From the NCBI GenBank assembly GCA_963678705.1, contig OY783214.1, forward strand, positions 13,516,001-13,580,000: a DNA stretch of 64,000 bases, written 5' to 3'. The position numbers and the translations under genes are program-made. Below are positions 5,767-36,000 of the stretch, in pieces. Numbering within the stretch: position 1 is the first letter of the stretch; every line of letters begins with the position of its first letter. This DNA comes from Panorpa germanica. Taxonomy: Eukaryota; Arthropoda; Insecta; Mecoptera; Panorpidae. The notes under the pieces were generated by a model. It was not told the DNA's origin and made no database searches. It saw only the letters and a program-made list of their open reading frames with translations.

Positions 5767-8700
5767 TTACAATCTGCTGTCTACAATGGGTCCTGGATTT
5801 TGTAATGCAGCTTTTCTGTTAGAGATGGCTTGTTCTAATTTACGATGGGGGCCAAGTGGAAGTTTTAGTACTGTTTTAAGGTCATCCTCTGTTAAAAGTA
5901 ACAATGCATCAAGGTCTATGTGTTCTTGCTCGAATTTGGGTATGTATTCAGAAAGTCCATAGACGGTGAGGAACCTGGCCAAAGCATCGCGAGAGTTATC
6001 TTCGCTGGAATCACTATCTGAGAGGTCATCATCTTGCGGTGTCCAGGATTTAACTGCTCTGGGTCGATCACTAGCTGCTAGACTACCTGCAGAACCAATT
6101 GATAATTCTTCTCCACCCCCTCCAAATCCGTTTAAGGTAGCTAGAGATCGTCTAAAATATAAATTCTTAATTAAATAAAGAAGGTATGGTAGGTCAATTG
6201 GGACCAAGGGTAGTCCGGATATGGTAAAAATAAAGACAAGTAATGTACGAAATAGATCTTCTTTTCCTCTTCTAACCGTTAAAATAATACGTTAAGCGGT
6301 TTGAAGACCTTCGCATGAAAAAGTACAGGGATAAATGCCATAGCAGCAGTTTTTTCTTAAAAGTCCCGTGTCGTTGTTTAAAATCGCCGAGAACTTGCTA
6401 CAAATAAAGAATCTTCACCAAGTTTTTCTACAGACCATAAAAATTATAGATTTTCGGACGGCGCCTAGCGCAAAATTTACATATCTATTAATAATATTTA
6501 AATTATGATATAAATGGGTTTTAATATGTGTAATCATTTTTTTAATTTTAGATAAAATAACGGAAAAGTCTGGTACTAAAGATGCTCTCTAGAAAATATT
6601 AACACAATCTTATACCTGAAAACAACACTTCCGAATCCTGGTTTAACAAACATGCTGGCTGGTTCTTGGAGGAGCACGTCTTCACTGGGTCCATTCTCTG
6701 CTGAATTAAGGGCTAGGAAATCCGGCTGACTTAATGATCTAAAACATTGATAAGATGTTGGGCTTTACAATCATTTCATATATGAAACTATTAGTACAAA
6801 ATGTAGTATTAAATGCACATTAAATGTTCTTCGATATTAGATTTTAGTAATTGAGTTGTCAACTATTATTTTAAGAGTATTTTTAAAAATTGATTATTGA
6901 AATATATGCTAATAATATGTTATTGTCGTTTTTATTTTATTATATATCCAAAAAGTGATGGAGATATAGCTATTTTAAATTTGAATTTCGTTTTTTACCG
7001 CTTAATTGTTAGCCATATTTTTTGTCGTGGCAAAGGCTGTAGAATATAATAATTAGTCAAATTTATTTATCGTTAATAACTTCTATAATATAGCAAATTC
7101 AATAAAAATAGATATACAACCAAATCAACCAAAGTACTGTGCAGTTTAAAATAAATTCAGTTATGGTTTGCAACCCAATTATTTTAAAGTTTAGTTATTT
7201 TCTTTTTGCAATATTCTTAAGGTGGCAGCATTGTTAAATTGTGCATCAATTTGAGTTTAAATTTTGACATGGAAAGTTAGTCTAACTTTTCTAATATATA
7301 TTTGTGTAAAATAACTGCAATGCAAAATGTAAAAATTAATTGTATTTATACATAAAGTTCTTAAGTTTAATTCTTACTATTTACTTTTTATTATAATACG
7401 TTTCTAAACATGTAAACATACTGGTGATGAAGGTCAAATGAAGCAACTAGTGAAGTACTTAATTTTTTACACAGTGCTTTTAAAATATCAAAGTTTGCAA
7501 ATTATATATTAATTAGATTTAATTTAGATTACTTTTTCTCTATTATTAAAGGTTTTTAGTTAGTGATGTGTATTTGAATAACTGTATTGTGATCGCAATG
7601 TTGCCTATCTCCATATAAAGGTAAGCTTAATATGTTATCATTTCGAGTAATATTACATAATTCTTGAATTTGAATTGCATTAAATGTAAATTAGTGCTTA
7701 CGAACCTTGTCATTCCATTGCTTTCCCCGTTTTCACTTTCTGGAACATCGAAAACATTTGCAAGTTTTCCCCTTCGTGTATTGTTTGTGTTTTCGAACGT
7801 GCCAACATACAAAACTTCAGAGTCTCGACGAACTCCACTGAGAGACCGTACACTACGTTTACCATCGTCTTCAGTTTTCCTGACTGTAAATTCACCTGAT
7901 TGAGCAATTGTACCATTTCGGGCTGCGTTCTTGGCTGCATTGGCTCGTCTTTCTACCGCAGATTTACCGCCCCGGGGCCCTGACACGGTGCCGTTTACTA
8001 GTGTACTAAAAGTAGTGGGCGTAGCACTTGATTGAGCCAAATTACCTGAAATACGTCTTTTGTATTAAATTCTCTATATATAAGCAATTACTTTTTAATT
8101 GACTACAATTGAACGGGATACTATTGTTGCTTACAAATCAGGCGCAACATTTGTCTACACAGAATTTAATATTTCTTTAAATTTTATGAATTAATACCTT
8201 GGCTCCCAGACCATTTTTGTTTTAAAGCAGTGATTACTGTTGACGGTCGATGAGGCATTGGGCGCGGAATACCTTCCATCCGATCTTGCTCCTGTTCAAC
8301 TTTCGATTGTTTTTTATTATATTTCCTAGCTCTTTTTTCACTATCCTTTTTAGCTTTTTCTCTCATTGCCTTCGCACGTTTTCTGCACATAAGAAAAGCA
8401 TTAATTGTATATTGATACTATTAAAAAAAAATGACAAGATATCTTACTTGTCTGTAGCTTCCAGTTTTGCTGTTTCTCCATCTAGATATATTAGAATCGC
8501 ATCTCTGTTATTTATTGAAGCCAGCTCTTTCGCGCTGTGTTGATCTATGTCCAGGGCGAATAAGTTAACTCCAAAATTGATTAAGAAGCTAACACAGTCC
8601 TGGTGTCCACGAGCAGCTGCTAGATGCAGAGCTGTGTTGCCGAATTGATCAGCCTTGTCAGGATTACCACTATAACAATATTAAATATATAGTAACTCTC

Positions 8701-19305: not shown

Positions 19306-19376
19306 AAATTTACCGGTTTATCAGTTTTTTTATAGTATAAAATAGATAAATTGTTACGTTTTTTTTTCGCGGAAAC

Positions 19377-22300
19377 ATGACTACGAACTATATTGCGAGT
19401 GTGCCAAAGCTAAAAGGCAGAGAGAATTACGATGAGTGGTGTTTCGCGGCCGAAAACTTGTTGGTACTAGAAGGGATGGAAAAGTACATCAAACCTAGTG
19501 CAGACTTCGAAGTTAAGCCAGTGGACGACTCCAAAACGAAGGCAAAGCTAATTTTAACCATCGATCCAGCATTGTACGTGCATATAAGGAATACCAGGAG
19601 CTCGGCAGAATTATGGACAAAATTGAAAGCCATGTTCGATGACTCCGGTTTCTCAAGAAAAATAACCTTACTTCGACATTTGATTTCGATAAGACTTGAA
19701 AACTGTGATTCGATGACTACCTATGTCACACAAATGATCGAAACGGCTCAAAAGTTAAATGGCACTGGATTTACAATAACAGATGAATGGGTCGGATCAT
19801 TATTATTAGCAGGTTTGACTGATCGCTATTCTCCAATGATAATGGCAATAGAACATTCTGGCATTTCGATAAGTGCGGATACTATAAAGTCGAAGTTACT
19901 CGACATGGAAGTAACCAGTGATTTTGAAGGTGCAGCTGGCGGTACGGCGGCATTTGCAGCGAGAAATAAATATAATTCTGGCAGCAGCGGTAAACCAAAG
20001 AAATATGGCGGCAACCCAATGTCGAACAAAAAGACCGCGGCAGATACATCAGCAAAAACAATCACTTGTTTCAAATGTAAAGAGGATGGACATTATCGAA
20101 ATCAGTGCCCAATGTTGAAGAAAAACACAAATAAATGCGTGTTTAACGTTGTTTTCCTAAACGGAAAGTATAACAAAAACGAATGGTACATTGACTCCGG
20201 CGCAAGTGCACACATAACAGCAAATAAAGATTGGGTAAAGAACATGAACACAACTCCATGTATACCAGAAATTGTTGTAGCAAATGAATCAAAAGTGCCA
20301 GTTGTTTGTTCCGGAGAAGTTGACATTATTTCTAAACTTGGATGCAATATAATAGTGAAAGATGTGTTGTGTGTGCCTAGCCTGACAACCAACCTATTGT
20401 CGGTTAGTGAGCTCATTCAGAATGGCAATCATGTGATATTTACAAAGAAAAACTGTTATATTAGAGACAAGAACAATGTTTTGGTGGCGACAGCTGATTT
20501 ATCTGATGGTGTTTATAAGTTGAGATTACAATCACAAAGTTGTATGTTGGCTACTACAGCTAGTGCAAAGTTATGGCACAGAAGACTGGCACATATAAAC
20601 AGCCAAGACATGCACAGAATGAGAAATGGTATTGTTGATGGTTTGTCTTATGATAACTCACTTGACATAACCAAATCACAATGTACTACTTGTTGTGAGG
20701 GAAAACAAATGAGATTACCATTTTCTCATGTGGGTGAGCGGAGTACAGAAACTTTACACAGAATCCACACAGATATTTGCGGCCCAATGGAAACAAGTTC
20801 TTTGAGTGGTGCTCGCTATTTCCTGTTATTTGTTGATGATTATAGTCGCATGACTTTTATTTATTTTCTGAAGCAAAAGAATGAAGCTTTGAACAGATTT
20901 AAAGAGTTCAAATCATTGGTTGAGAATCAACAGAGTAAGAAAATAAAGGTGATCAGGTCAGACAATGGACTAGAATTTTGTAACAAGGAATTTGAAGGCT
21001 ATTTGAAGCAAGCTGGAATTATACACCAGAAAACAAATTGTTATACACCTGAGCAAAATGGACTTTGTGAAAGGAGTAATCGTACAGTTGTTGAGAAAGC
21101 CAAATGTTTACTATATGATGCAAATTTAGATAAGAAATTTTGGGCGGAAGCAGCCAATACTGCTGTGTACTTGAAAAATAGATCGATTGCATCAGGATTG
21201 GATAAAACACCTCATGAGTTATGGTATGGATCAAAACCAGACTTAAGTCACCTACGTTTGTTTGGAAGCAAAATTATGGTGCATGTACCCAAACAGAAAC
21301 GTTTGAAATGGGACAAGAAAGCTACACAACATATTCTAGTTGGATATGGTGATGGTGTTAAAGGTTATCGTGTGTACAATCCTTCTAAGAACACTGTAAT
21401 GATCAGTAGAGATATAATAGTGATAGAAGATGTAACACCTATCAAGGAAGTCAGTGAAGAGTCAGCTATTTGGATATCCAATGAAGAAAATCCTACCGAC
21501 AATTTAGTGGAGGAAAGTAAAGATAAAGTGGGGGAGAGCAGAGATTCAGTGGGGGATCTGTCTAATAATGTTTCAGAAACAGATTTTTTAGATTGCTCTT
21601 CAGGTTCCTCATTACATACTGATGACAATGAAACACTGACTGAAATAAACACTGAAGATGTTCCAGAACAAGCAGTATCAATACCTGAGCAAGTGCCAGA
21701 TGTGCCAAGTAAGCGTCAGAGAAAGAAGCCTGAGCGCTATGGTATTAGCAACATATGTGTTTCCAGTACTGTTCCAGCATCGGAGGAGATTGTATTCTCA
21801 GAGGCTCTTGAAGGGCCTGACCGGGAGCAGTGGAAGCAGGCAATGGCTGATGAATTACAGTCATTTGAGGACAGTGATGCGTGGCAGCTTGTGGACCATC
21901 CAGGTGATGTGACAATAGTGAAGTGTAGGTGGGTGCTAAATAAAAAGTATGATTTTGAAAACAATGTAAGGTATAGGGCTCGATTAGTGGCAAAAGGTTT
22001 CTCGCAGAAACCAGGTGTTGATTATACAGATACTTTTTCACCGGTAGTGCGGCATTCTACTCTAAGATTGTTGTTTGCACTTAGTGTTCAAATGAAAATG
22101 AGTATAACACATCTAGATGTAACCACTGCTTTCCTTAATGGTTTTTTGAAAGAAAATATTTATATGTCATTACCTGAAGGTTTTGTAAACAAAAGTGGGG
22201 GAAAGGTCTTAAAATTAAATAAAGCCATTTATGGGCTAAAACAGTCTTCCCTGGCATGGTATGAAAGAGTTAAAGAAGTTTTGAGTAGATTAGATTTCAA

Positions 22301-23315
22301 AAATAGTCAATATGAACCATGTTTGTTTACAAAAATAACTGGTAAAATTAAAGTGATAGTGGCCCTGTATGTGGATGATTTTTTGATTTTTTCAAACAAT
22401 GATTTTGAAACAAATAAATTAAAAAGTGTATTAGGTTCAGAATTTAAGTTAAAAGACTTGGGACCTGTAAGACAATATTTAGGCATGAGAATAAATTTAG
22501 ATAAAAATAAAAATGTTATTACTGTAGATCAACAACAATATATTGAACAGTTAGTTTCTAAATTTCAAATGTCTGATTGTAAGACACAAAGTACTCCGAT
22601 TGAGCCTAAATTGAATTTAGATAAGTCATCTGATAAATGTTTACCTGATGTTCCTTATCAAAAACTTATTGGAAGTCTGATGTATCTGGCAGTATTAACA
22701 AGACCAGATATTGCTTACTGTGTTAGCTATCTCAGTCAATTTAATAGTTGTTATAGTCACATACATTGGAATTATTGTAAACGTGTATTAAGATATTTAC
22801 TGCATACTAAAAGTTATTGTTTAAAATATACCAATAATAACAATAGTAATTTACAAGGTTTTGTAGACAGTGATTGGGCAAGTGATGCTCTAGATAGAAA
22901 ATCCTATACTGGATTTTGCTTTATGTTGTCAGGGTCTGCCATTTCCTGGCAAAGTAGGAAGCAGAAAACGGTTTCATTATCCAGTACTGAGGCGGAATAC
23001 ACTGCTCTTTCTGAAGCTTCAAGAGAAGCTATTTATCTAAGAAATTTAATGCATGAAATTACTGATGTATTTAATGTAATTGATTTGTATTGTGATAACC
23101 AAAGTGCATTGAAGTTAGCTTCGAGTAGTCAGAGTCATAATAGATCCAAGCATATAGATGTGCGTTGTCATTTTATTAGAGATGTTGTAAAGAACAACTT
23201 TGTAAAAGTTAAGTACATTCCTACTGAAGAAATGCCTGCAGATATTTTAACAAAAGGTCTTTGTCATCTGAAACATTATAAGTTTATGAATTTACTTGGC
23301 ATTGTTTCTGTGTAA
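19377..23315 (+). CDS. Copia gag-pol polyprotein, 1312 aa
   Basis: One uninterrupted frame holds all copia domains in order. Gag comes first (about 1-230), ending in a CCHC zinc knuckle CFKCKEDGHYRNQC near 231-244. The aspartic protease follows with D-S-G-A near residue 272. The GAG-pre-integrase/zinc region has H-R-R-L-A-H and C-T-T-C. The integrase core has H-T-D near 464, S-D-N-G near 528 and the E of PEQNG near 559. Reverse transcriptase carries A-R-L-V-A-K-G-F and the catalytic Y-V-D-D near 997. RNase H starts at D-S-D-W near 1164 and includes STEAEY. All catalytic residues that can be checked are present and there is no frameshift. Length is normal for the family. Expression is presumably driven by the 5' LTR; copia makes extra Gag from a spliced RNA in Drosophila, which was not tested here. 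Gag and Pol share one frame. Confidence 0.97.
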   Translation: MTTNYIASVPKLKGRENYDEWCFAAENLLVLEGMEKYIKPSADFEVKPVDDSKTKAKLILTIDPALYVHIRNTRSSAELWTKLKAMFDDSGFSRKITLLRHLISIRLENCDSMTTYVTQMIETAQKLNGTGFTITDEWVGSLLLAGLTDRYSPMIMAIEHSGISISADTIKSKLLDMEVTSDFEGAAGGTAAFAARNKYNSGSSGKPKKYGGNPMSNKKTAADTSAKTITCFKCKEDGHYRNQCPMLKKNTNKCVFNVVFLNGKYNKNEWYIDSGASAHITANKDWVKNMNTTPCIPEIVVANESKVPVVCSGEVDIISKLGCNIIVKDVLCVPSLTTNLLSVSELIQNGNHVIFTKKNCYIRDKNNVLVATADLSDGVYKLRLQSQSCMLATTASAKLWHRRLAHINSQDMHRMRNGIVDGLSYDNSLDITKSQCTTCCEGKQMRLPFSHVGERSTETLHRIHTDICGPMETSSLSGARYFLLFVDDYSRMTFIYFLKQKNEALNRFKEFKSLVENQQSKKIKVIRSDNGLEFCNKEFEGYLKQAGIIHQKTNCYTPEQNGLCERSNRTVVEKAKCLLYDANLDKKFWAEAANTAVYLKNRSIASGLDKTPHELWYGSKPDLSHLRLFGSKIMVHVPKQKRLKWDKKATQHILVGYGDGVKGYRVYNPSKNTVMISRDIIVIEDVTPIKEVSEESAIWISNEENPTDNLVEESKDKVGESRDSVGDLSNNVSETDFLDCSSGSSLHTDDNETLTEINTEDVPEQAVSIPEQVPDVPSKRQRKKPERYGISNICVSSTVPASEEIVFSEALEGPDREQWKQAMADELQSFEDSDAWQLVDHPGDVTIVKCRWVLNKKYDFENNVRYRARLVAKGFSQKPGVDYTDTFSPVVRHSTLRLLFALSVQMKMSITHLDVTTAFLNGFLKENIYMSLPEGFVNKSGGKVLKLNKAIYGLKQSSLAWYERVKEVLSRLDFKNSQYEPCLFTKITGKIKVIVALYVDDFLIFSNNDFETNKLKSVLGSEFKLKDLGPVRQYLGMRINLDKNKNVITVDQQQYIEQLVSKFQMSDCKTQSTPIEPKLNLDKSSDKCLPDVPYQKLIGSLMYLAVLTRPDIAYCVSYLSQFNSCYSHIHWNYCKRVLRYLLHTKSYCLKYTNNNNSNLQGFVDSDWASDALDRKSYTGFCFMLSGSAISWQSRKQKTVSLSSTEAEYTALSEASREAIYLRNLMHEITDVFNVIDLYCDNQSALKLASSSQSHNRSKHIDVRCHFIRDVVKNNFVKVKYIPTEEMPADILTKGLCHLKHYKFMNLLGIVSV

Positions 23316-27954: not shown

Positions 27955-30900
27955 CTGATATAAATGTATCATAGTTAGCAGCAAGCTTTAGGAGTAAATG
28001 ACTATCACACTGATGAACAAGCCCCAGTCAGGCTAATCGACCAGAGGCTTATGTGATATTTCTTTAGTTGAATAAGCCTTGCGAATACCCGATTACGACT
28101 CTGTTGAGAAGCCATACCTTGTAATAAGGTAAGGTAGGTGTAGTAAGGCATATCTTGACAATGTTTCACCAAGGCTTCATGTATCTCGGCTAAAATTTCT
28201 ACTATTTTTGTGTTTCTTATCTATAGTTCTGTAGAGGAATACCCAGGTAGAAAATGTACCTTGGAATTACCTTGTAAAAAGGCATCATCTATGAAACTTG
28301 CATTTTCTACATGGATTAGTAGACTAATTTTTTAAAAAGCTGTAACATAGGTTGTACAAAACGTTGTATTTTAGGTGACATTAATTACGAAACAGGTAAC
28401 ATGTGTTATGTTACGGAAGAACGTGCAATATAAATAATTGTGTTTAGCGGAAACAATAGTAAAATTTCATACAATATAAAGTTAAGGAAACTACCCAATT
28501 AATTTTATTACTAAATAATAAAGTTGTTTTTTATAAAAAGTGATTTATAACAATATTTTACACAACTGTTTTCTCAATTATAAATAATAAAAAATCAATT
28601 AACATTAAGTTAGGACTTTCATAAGTTAGCAGAAATTATTTTCCACGTCCGAAGAGGTGTAAATATAATATATTCTCGTAGTAAAACCCTTGCATAGTTA
28701 TAAAGCAGTTTGGTGAGGGTGGGAGGGAAGACTGGGCGTGCAGCGTATCGAAGCGCATAACACTACACTATTGTGGAACCTGATGCATAAATCACAACTT
28801 TATCACGTTGTATACAATAATAATAAATAGCAAAATTAATTTAGTACACCTCCGCCGTTCTCCATCGCATTATGGTTCTTTCTTAACGCGAACCAGGATG
28901 GCGTACGATGGACCACTAACAGGGCTGACCAGGGTTGCATCTGAACAAATTTATTTGTGGAGCGAATACATTAGCAAATTTATTACATTCCGAATATTGT
29001 CCGTAAGTCACCCTATATCGCTCAAATGTCGATTCAGATACTAGGTCGCGTCTTATACGCTTCTGACCTGTAGACAAACTGTAGTGCTGTAGTTTCAAGG
29101 ACTATTTGCTACCGGACAAAATAAAGATTCCAAAGACACTATTTTATCAAATTTATAGCAAGAAAATTAACAATAAAAACGTAATGTGCTATTTTAGTTG
29201 CAATAAATCAAGTCCGACTGTAATTGAGTTTATCACTGACTGAACTGGCCTGGAAGCAGGAACGGAGCCCCAATCAGCATCAGACCATAAACTCACCATA
29301 AAGTCCAAGAATCATCAGTGGCAGCTTATCTTCTTTAAATGTTTTCGTTTGGTCTCCAACTGTACAGAACTGATTGTTTATTAAAAAATAAAATTCGTCA
29401 CTTGGAATATATAATTCCTAACAAAAATCTGGCCATCCCTGGTTTATAATAATGAAATTTAAACATCGTCCAATATCTATCTAATACGCCATGGAAACAT
29501 AACTTTGTTAAAAAGGACTCAATGAAAAAAAATTATAAGTATAATGTTGCTAAGTAAAAAGGTAACAAACGAATCGGCAAACAAATCTACCACACGATCA
29601 CCTGGCTCGAATACGCCAGACTCTGGTAAAGACTCAGGCGCAAATATCTTAGGAATTGGCATTAAGATTGTAAGGGGATTCGATGAACATAAGTAATAGG
29701 ATGGGCGCACACTGGACGATATTATCTTTAAACAGTTAAGCAAAATATTTTTTCTAAATACAGACTTGTCGAAAGTATTTTTATGGCCCGTACTTGATAA
29801 TAGTTAGATTAGATATTAGTTAGTTGTGCTCTCTAGTTGAGGATGTTGCTGTACTTTAATGTATAGTACATTGGATTGATTGGAGAATTATCAGCGTCTC
29901 TGTGTTAGAATAGGAGCAGGTTTCCGAACTCATAGTTATCGCATAAGTAAATTAACGTAGCTAGTTAAAGAGAAATAACAGTAAATCCTTCGGCCAATCC
30001 AATACCGGGATGATTAAATTAAAAAATTGATAACATAATACTAAAAATTTAAATACTTAAAAAACGCAAATCGTAATTTTTATTTGATAGCATCAACTGT
30101 ACAATTATAAACATTAGTAATCTGTAATTTACATTTATAAATACGACTATGTGTATTTAAATTAAGGAGATTAAATTAAATTCATTCTTGAGGAATATTA
30201 CAGTTTGTCTTTGTGATGAGTAGTTGGAGTATTGAAGAATGTTGTTACATTGTTTACAGATAGGTTGTATTCTGTAAAAACGTAATTCGAACAACGCATC
30301 TTCAAATATATTAGATTCTATAAACGGCGCAACTTCCAAAATGAAGCTCTGGTGTTCTTTCTTTTAGATGGTGGCCCTTTTGTTTCGATGGTGACCATGG
30401 GCAGGCTGAAGGTTATTCCAATGTTCATACCCTGCATAACTATTATTAGCCTCAAGTTTCTTTAAACCTGAAGTCTAACGTAACGTAAGCAAAATAGCGT
30501 AACGTAGCAAAAGGATAACACTATATTTCTGAACATTTACAAAGTCGCTACAACTTCAATGTCAGTTTTTTATTATGAGTTACTACACTAATACCACCAC
30601 AAAGTGATTGAATTTATGGTGTGATTTTGCTGATGCAGATCAGAGAGAACTATGGACCATGAAGAAAATTATAGCCGTTGCTCGTAGCCAACGTAAAGCG
30701 AAATAGAATTCAATGATTTAGAATATAATCAATTATGATGGCGAGTGATTAAACAATTGAATTATTACAAATTATCTGTTGTGTAAAATTAACTATTTGT
30801 TGGGATAATGTATATGTAAATTTATATTCTACTGACTGTACTCTGCGCAACATACCTTGTTTCAACAATAAATTTCGTGATATTGTAACTAATTATTATT

Positions 30901-31159
30901 TAATTTTCTAACGAATTAATAATCTATTTTATATAATTATTATTTTACGATTATTTCAATTGTTAACGTTATATCTATTGGGTAATATTTAAGGCTATAT
31001 ATTTCGAATTGTCTATCAATGTAAGATTTATTCTTGGTAGCTTACTATAAGCCAATTCTCTAAGCTAGTGTTACATTGCGTTTCGTTTTTAATTGAATGG
31101 ACATATTTTAACTTACAGCCAATTGAATTTTACATTTTTATTATATTTTATTGTTACAG
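27955..31159. other. Region without recognised genes
   Basis: AT-rich. It contains a solitary transposon-end motif GGGCGCACACTGGACG at 29703-29718, similar to the TAA-type MITE ends elsewhere, and a LINE fragment at 30100-30265. The - strand frame at 29519-29743 is protein-like over a short part (IPKIFAPESLPESGVFEPGD) but lacks a supported acceptor and a known motif. Confidence 0.4.
30100..30265 (-). mobile_element. 5'-truncated LINE 3' end, copy 2
   Basis: On the - strand, N-L-I-S-L-I and a stop followed by the shared 3' tail. Upstream, TTCTTCAATACTCCAACTAC parallels the F-F-D-A-Q-G-T segment of the copy near 43100, but sequence between them is deleted and a frame is broken. Confidence 0.55.
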
Positions 31160-31824
31160 ATTTGTCCTTATTGCTGAGGAAGACAATTCAATTTCAATTG
31201 ATTATTGTGCAAGTGTCGTGTTTGCATAGACTTTGTGCAGTGTTGTCTTTAGTGTAACTGTAGTGTTGAATTACTGAAATCAGGAAGGATATAGCAGTTC
31301 CTGACCTCACAAAAGACATCGGGCACTAGGACGTATATGGAAAGGTAACAATTTAAATAATAATTATTTACTTTTATTATTTCAATGAACTTGTGGAAGA
31401 TGTTAACAAATTTTATTTTATAATTATTAGGATTATTTAAATCAGGAAGGATATAGTAGTTCTTGAACATGCATGGAGGCTTTAGGATATTAAAAAAAAG
31501 GTAATATTCCTAATTAATCTCATATATAGATGATTGAAACCTAATCCATTTCTATTCTAATTAACTAATTGTACTTTTAACGATTTTTTCTTCTTGTTTT
31601 AGGTTCACATCAGGTTTCCACTACTGTAACAATGAGCCCCAAGTAAGTGGAACTTAATTCTAAGCATGGGCCCCACTAACTGAAAAATTACTTTACAGAT
31701 GTCTAACAATTTTTAAAATGGAAATGATTATTAATCTTGAAAGATATTGGAGTCTGTTTCAGATATGTGTTGGACGTCCAAGATTACCGACGATGACTGA
31801 GGAATGAATGAAACTAAAATAAAG
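31160..31824 (+). ncRNA. Spliced non-coding-like unit, copy A (four exons)
   Basis: Four intervals have consensus borders on the + strand: 31160-31344 (acceptor TTGTTACAG, donor GTAACA), 31431-31500 (acceptor ATTATTAG, donor GTAATA), 31603-31642 (acceptor TTCTTGTTTTAG, donor GTAAGT) and 31763-31824 (acceptor TCTGTTTCAG, donor GTAATA). All four are repeated in copy B at 31906-32669. Stop codons occur in every frame of the first exon, so a protein is unlikely, although one frame of the CAAGTGTCG block reads Q-V-S-x-L-H-R-L in all three copies of that block. The first two exons share the core ATCAGGAAGGATATA, which shows an older duplication inside the unit. The unit may be part of a longer non-coding RNA or a decayed repeated-exon gene. 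Confidence 0.5.
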
Positions 31825-31905
31825 GTAATAATCCTTTGTATCATTTTGTAATTGAATTTATTTTCGTTAATATTATAATTTTAAGAAGGTTTTTTATTAT
31901 TACAG

Positions 31906-32669
31906 ATTTCTTAACGGATTTTGCAGCGTTCTTATTGCTGTAGAAGATAATCTGCAAGTGTCGCGTTTGCATAGACTCTATGTAGTGTTTAGTGCAAGTG
32001 CATTGTTAAACTATTTAAATCAGGCTATCCACGGCAGTTCTTGATCTTGTGGAGGACATCGTAAACTAGGACGTAATTGGAGAGGTAATCATCTAATTAA
32101 TAATTAGTTCGATTATCAGTTCAATAGACTTGTAGAAAATTTTAACTAATACCTTTTGTTCTAGACTCAAAATTAACAATTACATTGGATATGTGCAAGT
32201 GTCGCGTTTGCATAGACTTAGTGCAGTGTTTAGTGTAAGTGCATTGTTGAACTATTTAAATCAGGAAGGATATTGCAGTTCCTGAAAACGCACGGAGGCG
32301 CCCGGCTTTAGGATTTATTAAAAAAGGTAATATTCTAAATTTATCTCATATATAGATGATCCAAATTTAATCTATTTTTATGATAATAAACTTATTGTAA
32401 TCTTAACGATTTCTTCTTCTTGTTTCAGGCTCACATCAGGTTTCTACAGCTGTAACAATGAGCCCCAAGTAAGTGGAACGTATTTCTAAGCATGTGCCCC
32501 ATTAACTGAAAAATTACTTTATAGACGTCTGACAATTCTTAAAATGGAAATTATTATTAATCTTGAAAGATATTTGGAGTCTGTTTCAGATATGTGTTGG
32601 AGGTCCAAGATTTCTTCAGAAATTACAGCTAGCGGAGATGATTGAGGAAGGAATGAAACTAAAATAAAG
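31906..32669 (+). ncRNA. Spliced non-coding-like unit, copy B (four exons)
   Basis: Tandem duplicate of copy A. Exons are 31906-32084 (acceptor TATTACAG, donor GTAATC), 32165-32326 (acceptor TTGTTCTAG, donor GTAATA), 32429-32468 (acceptor TTCTTGTTTCAG, donor GTAAGT) and 32590-32669 (acceptor CTGTTTCAG, donor GTAATA). Every splice site of copy A has a counterpart, and the 40-nt third exon has the same length in both. Introns are conserved about as well as exons. Exon 2 is longer at its 5' side than in copy A and starts with its own copy of the CAAGTGTCGCGTTTGCATAG block. No long frame is present. The last donor faces an LTR fragment, so any further exon would be beyond 33.1 kb. Confidence 0.5.
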
Positions 32670-32730
32670 GTAATAATCCTTTGTGTAAATTTATAATCGC
32701 ATTTATTTTCGTTAATTATTGTTTGTTAAA

Positions 32731-32746
32731 CCCACTTCTGACACCA
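32731..32746 (-). promoter_or_regulatory. Retroelement primer-binding site (tRNA-Leu type)
   Basis: On the - strand TGGTGTCAGAAGTGGG directly follows the LTR ending ATTACA. It is complementary to CCCACTTCTGACA plus CCA, which I remember as the 3' end of insect tRNA-Leu. Confidence 0.6.
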
Positions 32747-32747
32747 A

Positions 32748-33092
32748 TGTAATGAATATGAAATGACAAGACTTTTGGACAAAACTTGAATTGAAAAACC
32801 CATTTCTTAGGTCATACATTAACTTTATGGAGAAAGCTGAGCAGACTGGTCGTACTTATTGGGCTAAAGGTTTTACGGGGTCCTTTTACTTACTTATTTT
32901 TTAACCTACTTTTTTGACTAGTGCCTTAAGCTTCCGGCACCGAAGGCACGTAATCCATTGATAATGAAATAACTCTTTTGTATTTATAAATCCTGATAGT
33001 GACACAGATAGCCTACCGTATTTAATCAAATTATTCCGTCGTTAATTATATCATTGTATAATTATATCTACAATTCCATGGGGGCAGTAACA
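32748..33092 (-). mobile_element. LTR fragment of a Ty3/gypsy- or BEL-like element
   Basis: On the - strand this runs from TGTTACTGCCCCCATGG to CATATTCATTACA, giving TG...CA termini, and includes a TATA-like TTTATAAATA. A primer site and about 15 further bases follow, then host sequence homologous to the end of unit A resumes. So it is a 5' LTR with a stub of the internal region, the rest deleted. The class was not determined. The left boundary (33092) is chosen from the TG terminus and has no target duplication to confirm it. Confidence 0.55.
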
Positions 33093-36000
33093 ATTTACAT
33101 TAGTTAATTACTAATTATCTGTTCACGTATAGTATACATGCAATACAGACACACACACGTTCATTTGAGTACGAGTACAATCTATCTATATAGTGAAATA
33201 GTCATTTAGATTGAGTTATTGCTCGGAGATTGTTATTAAGTGCAATTATCGAGATCGTATCCCGAGCAAATGCCGCTTGTCATATGTTAAATATATACGT
33301 ACTGTATGTCCTTCTATATCGCGGATTCTTACAATGCGAGACCTTATAACGCGGTAGTTGTGTATACCAAATGGTGAGGTTCCAACACCACAAAGCTGAC
33401 AATATTACTGTAGAAGAATTCGATTTTCAAAAAACAAAATAAGATAATATTTTTTTTACAACTTGGGAAGGGATTAACAATGTGTGACAAGATGTGGCAA
33501 TGAGTATGAAGTTGTTAAAAAATAATAAAGTTTTTGTTACGTAATTTTTGGATGACTATTTTCATTTATAATAATTCGAATGTAATTAAGAGTATTTCAT
33601 ATTTCAAATTTTATAGACGCATAGTCTCGAAGACAAATGTTATTTATGATTTGCCTGGACTATGCTAAGAATAAGTCATGTTGTAATTATTACCTTTCTT
33701 TGAGTTACATATTATAAAATCATTTGCTGCTATTCAACGTTCATGAATATGCTAAATGATTCCATTGCATGTTACTGATTCGTTTCACTATAAATTAACT
33801 GCGACACTTAATTTTATGTATTTTTAACGGTCTTTTCATTTTCATTCATCATTTGTTCATTTTGTTTATTCATTATTTTAATACAACAATGGTTATAGGC
33901 GACTTTTACACCTAAAAGTATCTGCTACATAAATTTTATAGAAATGATATTTTATGATTTAAAAAACAAATCACTCGTCGCATAATGACCTCCTATTATG
34001 TTTGTGATTATTATAGTGCCGATATGTTGGTTACAAGATGCTTAATATTTGTATATTTATATTTAGTATAAGCAATTGAACGAAACAACAGTATGTATAA
34101 TACTAGTTCGAGTTGATATCGTTTCAAATTAATATTGAAAACGGTTCGAAAACGGTATGAAAATAACGGTTATTCGCTAAAATATTGATAGAAACTTAAC
34201 CTAAAATGGTACGAAACATTACTTGTCACTAATTTTGGTAACCGATTTTTTTTACCGTTGGTTCTTTCTCCTCTGGTTTTATTATACATAAAGGGTACAA
34301 AAACGGTTGCAGTAAATGGAAATGGTTCTGTTTTTGAACTGAAATTTGTTCTATTTTCTCAGTTTGACGCGATATTTCAAAAGATAATTAATTTAAGAAT
34401 ATACAGGTTTCAAATATGGTTATCACAGTTTTATTTTCTGCTAGTGGCGTTTAATTCCTTCGCGCCTCTGGACGTCGGATTTATGTGGAACGGATTCAGC
34501 TCTCAGCTTATCCAGGAGGGCATCGGAAAAGACTGAACCATAATTAATAGCACGTCGGCCGCAGCCGCGATCGTGGTTCGCCGGTACTGTCGGTTGGGGG
34601 TGTTACCGAGAATCCACAGGGTGAACAATAATTACTAATTACTAATAACAATTCAATCAGTTTGTTCACATAGACATATTAAAAAGAATTGGGTTGTTTG
34701 TGTCTGAAATCACAAGAAAAGGCCGCTCCTCTACCCTCAGCACTTTACATTTTACCATTTTAGATACGAATATAAACAGTCTATCCAACTTTACAACAAA
34801 TCTTACAAGAAAGAGTTATTGTTAAAATTTGCGGAAAAGCGAATGGTTCTGAACTTAAGGATGTCGCAGAAACAGGACCTCAGAGTTTTTTAAATTTAAT
34901 TTGTATTTACCATGGTTCAGTGGCATTTATGCAAGCATGGTCGGAGTCTTTAAGAAACATAGAAAAAAATTGATTTTTGCAAAATATATTTAATAAAGTA
35001 AACAACAGAAAATAAAAATGTAATACACATTAAAATACGTAATAAAAAATTAGAGAAAATACAGATCATAATACAGTAGAATTTCTATATAACGGACTTG
35101 ATGGAAAAAATAATTAATAGAAATGTTAATAAAAATTTGTTGTATATATTTTTGGAGAATTTTCTAGTAGAAACCACAGTTTAATAACCTTATGGCAACC
35201 TAGGAATTGTGAATCTGCACTGCGAGATAATATTTAATCTAGGAGTAGTAAATTCTACGTATGGATTAGACTGAAAATTGTGTTTGTTTTATCCATAATC
35301 TATTATATAGAGGGCCGTTATATCGCATTAAAATTCTTTTTACTGGTTTCTATTTTTGCAAGTTCAGAAGAAACGTATAATAGAACGCTTTTACTATCAA
35401 TTTTCAGAAAAAAAAACACTTTTCATCATTCTATCCTGCCAAATTTTTAAGAGTACCTTTCTGTTTCGTCCTGTATTCTGAATTGTATTTATTCGAGTCA
35501 CATTGCAAGTGCGTTAGGCATCAATTTATTTATATTTTGCCTCAATTCTTACCACAAATGATACATTTAAAAATACAACTAGTAATTATTTTATAATTAT
35601 AGTTTAAATCCTTTCCTATTTCTTGCACTCCTTGTGAGGAACATGACGCATGACGCAGAGCAGCGGTATGGCGGGTTTCAGAGCCATCCATCTTCCAGCA
35701 GTTAAGTTAGGCGTTAAATTAATTTATATTCCCAGCTTAGAAGTTCCTTTACAATTTGCTTGATGTACGAGTACGATTTTGTGGTGCATTTTTCTGCCCT
35801 GTTTCATATCAATTTAAATAATAATACTAGCTTATTTAAAGGTAATTATCCATCTATAAATATACATACATAGTATGTGAGTTAAATGGGAAGTTAAATA
35901 TAATCAAATAATTTATTATGTAACACTATTATGGTAAGCTAATGAAACTTGCATTGCAAGACTATTGTCTACCTCGGAATCTTTTAGAATTATCTCATTG

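Follow-up and report, generated by a model that had tools for sequence, protein, structure and literature searches.

A tandem pair of exon-like blocks as a probable decayed copy of a dispersed non-coding repeat, one lineage of which lies beside a Helitron-type end

Helitrons are copied by a rolling-circle mechanism. The non-autonomous Helitrons of silkworm, bat and maize that carry gene fragments resemble the repeat analyzed here in having a 3' hairpin and a CTAG terminus next to an A, many copies, cargo that retains its introns, a star-like decay and an often tandem arrangement. The present repeat differs from them in that its cargo has no match to a known gene, that its 5' end was not found and that its copy in the window, i.e. 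the whole 64-kb stretch of DNA under analysis, shows no Helitron end. A CTRR end, an AT target, captured fragments and single bursts are attributed to the silkworm Helitrons in the account used here (PMC3789558). The bat element HelibatN3 carries the NUBPL promoter, start and splice donor and likewise represents a gene piece with splice sites that was spread by rolling-circle copying, whereas the repeat of the window comprises several exons and introns, has no known source gene and is known from DNA sequence (PMC4778049). Tandem units dispersed by rolling-circle elements are also found in Cg_HINE and DINE-1-type Helentrons with central tandem repeats; these repeats are short and satellite-like, whereas the units considered here measure about 0.7 kb and contain splice-like sites (PMC7492417, PMC4067079). 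Additionally, the TE-LNCR element of Spodoptera frugiperda is similar in being dispersed, unclassified and non-coding and in that it could give a long RNA, but its transcribed region showed no large introns over the 1.24 kb that were examined, and its copy number is estimated at 1600-2050 (PMC3184123). A search of open-licence full texts, which was not aimed at this species, yielded no published account of the cargo itself.

The window (C11:13516001-13580000, from a genome of 464 Mb in 249 contigs) contains two adjacent blocks on the plus strand, unit A at 31150-31890 and unit B at 31906-32750, which carry the same four exon-like intervals, as the original prediction had proposed. In unit A, the exon-1-like interval (31160-31344) is preceded by TTGTTACAG, followed by GTAAC and includes an ATCAGG core at 31279. 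The exon-2-like interval (31431-31500) lies between TTAG and GTAATA, the third interval comprises positions 31603-31642, and the fourth as originally drawn (31763-31824) is preceded by GTTTCAG and followed by GTAATAAT; the unit ends in an inter-unit intron. The corresponding intervals of unit B are located at 31906-32084, 32165-32326, 32429-32468 and, again as originally drawn, 32590-32669. The third interval indeed measures 40 nt in both blocks, and the predicted ATCAGG cores are present at 31441, 32019 and 32260 as well as in the first exon of A, with two further ones at 31609 and 32435 within the third interval. The block CAAGTGTCG[CT]GTTTGCATAG occurs three times as stated, at 31210, 31955 and 32196, and unit B contains a 240-nt internal repeat of the CAAGTGTCG block (31950/32191). 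Missing from the proposed exon map is a short canonical-looking intron (GTAAGT...CTAAC...TTTACAG) at 31643-31698 in unit A and 32469-32524 in unit B. Because this intron directly follows exon 3, the acceptors drawn at 31763 and 32590 for exon 4 may not be the first ones used. The direct repeats of the window block, which include 271 nt at 87% (31478/32304), 87 nt at 87% (31785/32630) and a 75-nt block present three times with 60-100% identity, are far beyond chance. A high-copy short repeat with 756 candidates is located just upstream of the block, at 30100-30242 of the window.

Strict donor-like sites are concentrated on the plus strand of the window block, where seven were counted in 1.55 kb (4.5 per kb); the minus strand of the block has two, and the density elsewhere in the window is 0.53 per kb. 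This enrichment of approximately eightfold corresponds to a Poisson value of 2e-5, which overstates the significance, since sites that are copies of one another do not count as independent. Acceptor-like sites of the block are without clear enrichment, with five on the plus strand and six on the minus strand, or four and ten at another cut-off. Among 52 copies of the unit, exon 3 is bounded by AG and GT in 51 and has a length of 40 nt in 44 and of 39 nt in six. Intact dinucleotides are present in 50 of these copies at the exon-2 donor, in 51 at the exon-3 acceptor, in 52 at the exon-3 donor and in 50 at the exon-4 acceptor, and in 45 at the exon-4 donor. The share of core dinucleotides that are as intact as the former four sites is 17, 11, 3 and 17%, respectively, and the retention is suggestive at most because the copies were collected via the same stretch. 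Since splice-like sites are enriched on one strand, a spliced ancestry of the block is nevertheless credible. The block had been noted before to have no long frame, and no conserved reading frame was found among the copies; long frames were rejected on the aligned copies, and Rfam gave no match at E-values up to 1 for either strand of window positions 30500-33500.

The original prediction had interpreted the block as a spliced RNA gene or decayed gene that nothing familiar explains. The look of a spliced gene, with its strand-specific donors and the AG...GT frame of exon 3, was retained from this interpretation, and the isolated gene was not. A genome search with the window block yielded at least 106 matches on many contigs (37 of 81 candidates scored), and those longer than about 300 nt showed 74-89% identity to the block. 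At least 50 related units, each with 200 nt or more of the core, were found in 36 of the 38 loci fetched, the other two (L014 and L048) holding ends only. Many unlinked copies had been named beforehand as the mark of an ordinary transposon, and because such copies are numerous across the genome, the block is no solitary gene; the Helitron-type 3' end that accompanies units, described below, speaks likewise against a case without familiar explanation. The members of this dispersed family retain their introns and occur singly or in tandem sets, in which the sequence always continues from the last donor of one unit to the first acceptor of the next. The proposed growth by duplication of whole multi-exon units was thus seen in the family at large, namely in the arrays of loci L013 and L061. 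In many loci exons 1 and 2 are fused as one, and the split form of the window, with exon 1, intron and exon 2, recurs in loci such as L015, L020 and L026.

Over 358 core columns, the units differ from each other by a median of 14.3% and from the column majority by a median of 8.1% (unit A 8.6%, unit B 7.3%), and the decay is star-like, with terminal branches much longer than the inner ones. Over the core, units A and B are 11.7% divergent, with values of 14.9, 10.0 and 9.7% for exons 2, 3 and 4 and of 16.7 and 7.5% for introns 2 and 3. Unit B ranks third among the relatives of A and A eighth among those of B, both having nearer ones elsewhere; as a tree grouping the two was nonetheless not rejected (AU p 0.46), a local duplication from A to B is neither shown nor excluded. 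Across the copies, exons and introns changed at 0.069 and 0.087 per column (p 0.18), a difference that is not significant, with introns decaying at about the rate of exons. Exon 3 and its short intron are kept about twice as well as their neighbours (0.051 versus 0.094 and 0.099, in 43 of 52 copies), a peak that plain neutral decay would not give. This peak is real in the sample but probably inflated by the way the copies were collected: L062 and L063, found with an exon-1/2 query, are without the stretch. Two array units show a weak version of it only (17/190 versus 50/352, p 0.10).

Among the 39 loci, i.e. the 38 fetched ones and the window, a left module is located directly before the first acceptor in 18 according to a profile search (E < 1e-5; 11 of the 18 served as profile seeds). 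Its outer part of about 80 nt is highly repeated elsewhere in the genome (1336 candidates), and its outermost sequence, when reversed, consists of a CGTCGC-AAA-GCGACG hairpin (-6.3 kcal/mol, z -2.3), about ten bases and CTAG. This hairpin terminus has 340 genome matches at up to two mismatches, compared with none for the reversed control. Among the 100 matches listed, 51 end exactly in CTAG, and an A precedes the final 4-mer in 91 of them and in 50 of the 51 with exact CTAG, these counts referring to genome-wide termini and not to unit-bearing copies alone. The exact terminus ACTAGCGTTTACCCCGTCGCAAAGCGACG was found once in the genome and not at all with another letter in front, so that the family must be old and the mismatch-tolerant search alone is informative. 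Because this anatomy fits the published description of silkworm Helitrons, the terminus is regarded as a Helitron 3' end (PMC3789558). All 150 matches scored with a Helitron_like_N profile, out of 893 candidates, exceeded the cut-off. The Helitron replication-protein matches listed crowd on contigs C1, C2 and C5; this crowding and the identical scores of several matches point to recent activity of such elements. Two copies of one fetched Helitron end with a hairpin and CTAGT, in a sequence unlike the family terminus.

The copy in the window belongs to a sister lineage with the same cargo, a different right end and no visible Helitron terminus; the profile of the left module had no match in the window. 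The right end of this lineage, TTAAATCCCAC[AT]TCTGACACCAAT, was detected by a profile in 11 of the 39 loci, nine of which were seeds; besides the window these are L016, L020, L021, L029, L036, L043, L045, L048, L049 and L050. The two ends are mutually exclusive, with the Helitron module in 18 of the 28 loci that lack the tRNA-like right end and in none of the 11 that have it (p 2.3e-4). In a tree of 52 units, the end type changes three times, compared with 11.8 times in shuffles, none of 500 being as low, with labels that were set by the analyst (26 rows Helitron, 14 tRNA-like, 12 unlabelled) and that include L040 and L046 as tRNA-like by eye, neither of which the profile recovered. The left edges of the tRNA-like lineage vary, although L040, L043 and L045 start within 14 nt of each other. 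These three starts lie in the first intron, the window equivalents being 31371, 31358 and 31359.

We consider it reasonably probable that the window block belongs to a dispersed non-coding repeat, of which it is an old and decayed copy, and that the core of this repeat is a fragment of a spliced gene that was spread as DNA and, in one lineage, as Helitron cargo. That copying went through DNA rather than spliced RNA follows from the introns that still lie between the short exons of the unit. In the proposed sequence of events, several exons of a spliced transcription unit would have been captured together with the introns between them. In one large lineage, this fragment would have become cargo of a non-autonomous Helitron, the 3' end of which is located to the left of the unit in inverted orientation. 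Rolling-circle copying would then disperse the unit without loss of its introns and would easily yield tandem copies. The capture from a host gene, the rolling-circle copying and the transport of the window copy by the same machinery are what we infer from these arrangements. Several observations fit this explanation less well. The window copy and all loci with the tRNA-like end are without the Helitron left module, and in only five loci (L015, L025, L028, L038 and L042) can the terminal motif be read, within four edits, immediately to the left of a unit. Moreover, 49 of the 100 termini listed are not exactly CTAG, and no 5' TC end was found in the right tails of 14 loci, which fade without a common edge; the right tail of L049 matched only itself when used as a genome query. 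No autonomous partner with the 3' end of the family was identified, the two fetched Helitron copies ending differently, and no donor gene for the cargo was found. Finally, the better conservation of exon 3 and its short intron is unlike plain neutral decay.

Long tandem arrays elsewhere in the genome allow a different explanation, in which the primary entity would be a host gene that is built of tandem multi-exon units and gives a spliced non-coding RNA, the window block and the other dispersed units being its scattered fragments. We regard this as unlikely. Arrays of the same exon modules are located on C1 at 26.29 Mb (L013) and on C21, the largest contig seen, at 7.81 Mb (L061) and 41.32 Mb. 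An exon-1/2 query from L023 gave 12 main matches at C21:41320101-41338015 and nine at C21:7807448-7822352, with a spacing of about 1.5-2.3 kb (1.55-2.32 kb), in addition to the array on C1. The array at 7.81 Mb, read over 4 kb, consists of 1.58-kb copies that are 93.6% identical to each other and 92.7% identical to L013, on a different chromosome, over 2.36 kb. Its units contain several exon types, including further exon-like intervals, each after a pyrimidine-rich acceptor. The plus strand of the two arrays, 11.6 kb in total, carries 73 acceptor-like and 23 strict donor-like sites, i.e. 2.4 and 3.7 times the density in the rest of the window (2.69 acceptors and 0.53 donors per kb), whereas the minus strand with 33 and nine sites is near background. 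The intact core splice dinucleotides in 50-52 of the 52 copies point in the same direction. However, the array units are nested and long-branched in the FastTree phylogeny, which does not mark them out as the source, the repeats within the arrays are non-independent, so that Poisson values are overstated, and neither a reading frame nor an Rfam match accompanies the units. An extension of this idea, with at least three recently homogenised giant arrays that would be densely set with exons on one strand and would give a long, repeatedly spliced RNA, and whose pieces, including the window block, would have been scattered by Helitrons and by a second vehicle bringing a tRNA-Leu primer-binding site, appears improbable.

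The right end of the window lineage raises the alternative that this lineage represents an LTR retrotransposon's 5' leader seen from its antisense strand, on which the exon-like signals would be fortuitous. At the right edge of the block, on the minus strand at 32731-32748, lie 18 nt (CCCACTTCTGACACCAAT) that we take to be the 3' end of a tRNA-Leu with CCA and, when reversed, a primer-binding site. The related motif CCCAC[AT]TCTGACACCAA is present at the right end in nine of the 39 loci within three substitutions, and the 18-mer has 23 exact matches in the genome and none in the reversed control; three of eight fetched 18-mer matches are copies of another repeat. Beyond the tRNA-like edge, the sequence differs between loci, and a stretch past the motif is common to only four places, all of which belong to the repeat family of the window block. 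Furthermore, the fetched loci have no paired long repeats at the unit edges and no open reading frame of more than 121 amino acids overlapping a unit, although non-autonomous forms would be without gag-pol anyway. A direct repeat of 645 nt, located 282 and 1321 nt out at L043, is a repeat that is also present near other loci. On balance, we consider the leader origin doubtful.

A decayed family of protein-coding genes with short exons is very improbable: although spliced frames reach 63 codons in single copies, those that start with the ATG of exon 3 attain a length of 30 codons in 12 of the 52 copies and end at 18 or fewer in 39, there is no third-position excess worth the name (0.103, 0.089 and 0.128), exon 3 varies in length as given above, and Pfam had no match for two peptides read from aligned copies.

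When the dispersed-repeat explanation is followed, the window block is mostly ordinary, namely one copy of an old and widely scattered repeat. Dispersed repeats with intact pairs of splice sites are raw material for new exons, and if captured multi-exon cargo still amplifies in the arrays, this would clearly exemplify the spread of splice signals by a transposon. Transcribed arrays would represent an unusual kind of RNA locus; arrays that are not transcribed would still illustrate that a tandem pair met in a single window may be just one member of a family found throughout the genome. Among the other features of the window, an open frame of 1321 amino acids at 19350-23315 on the plus strand contains Copia-type gag, integrase and reverse transcriptase domains, and a SAM-domain exon is located at 5767-6291 on the minus strand, with ANKS4B and USH1G as the nearest solved structures.
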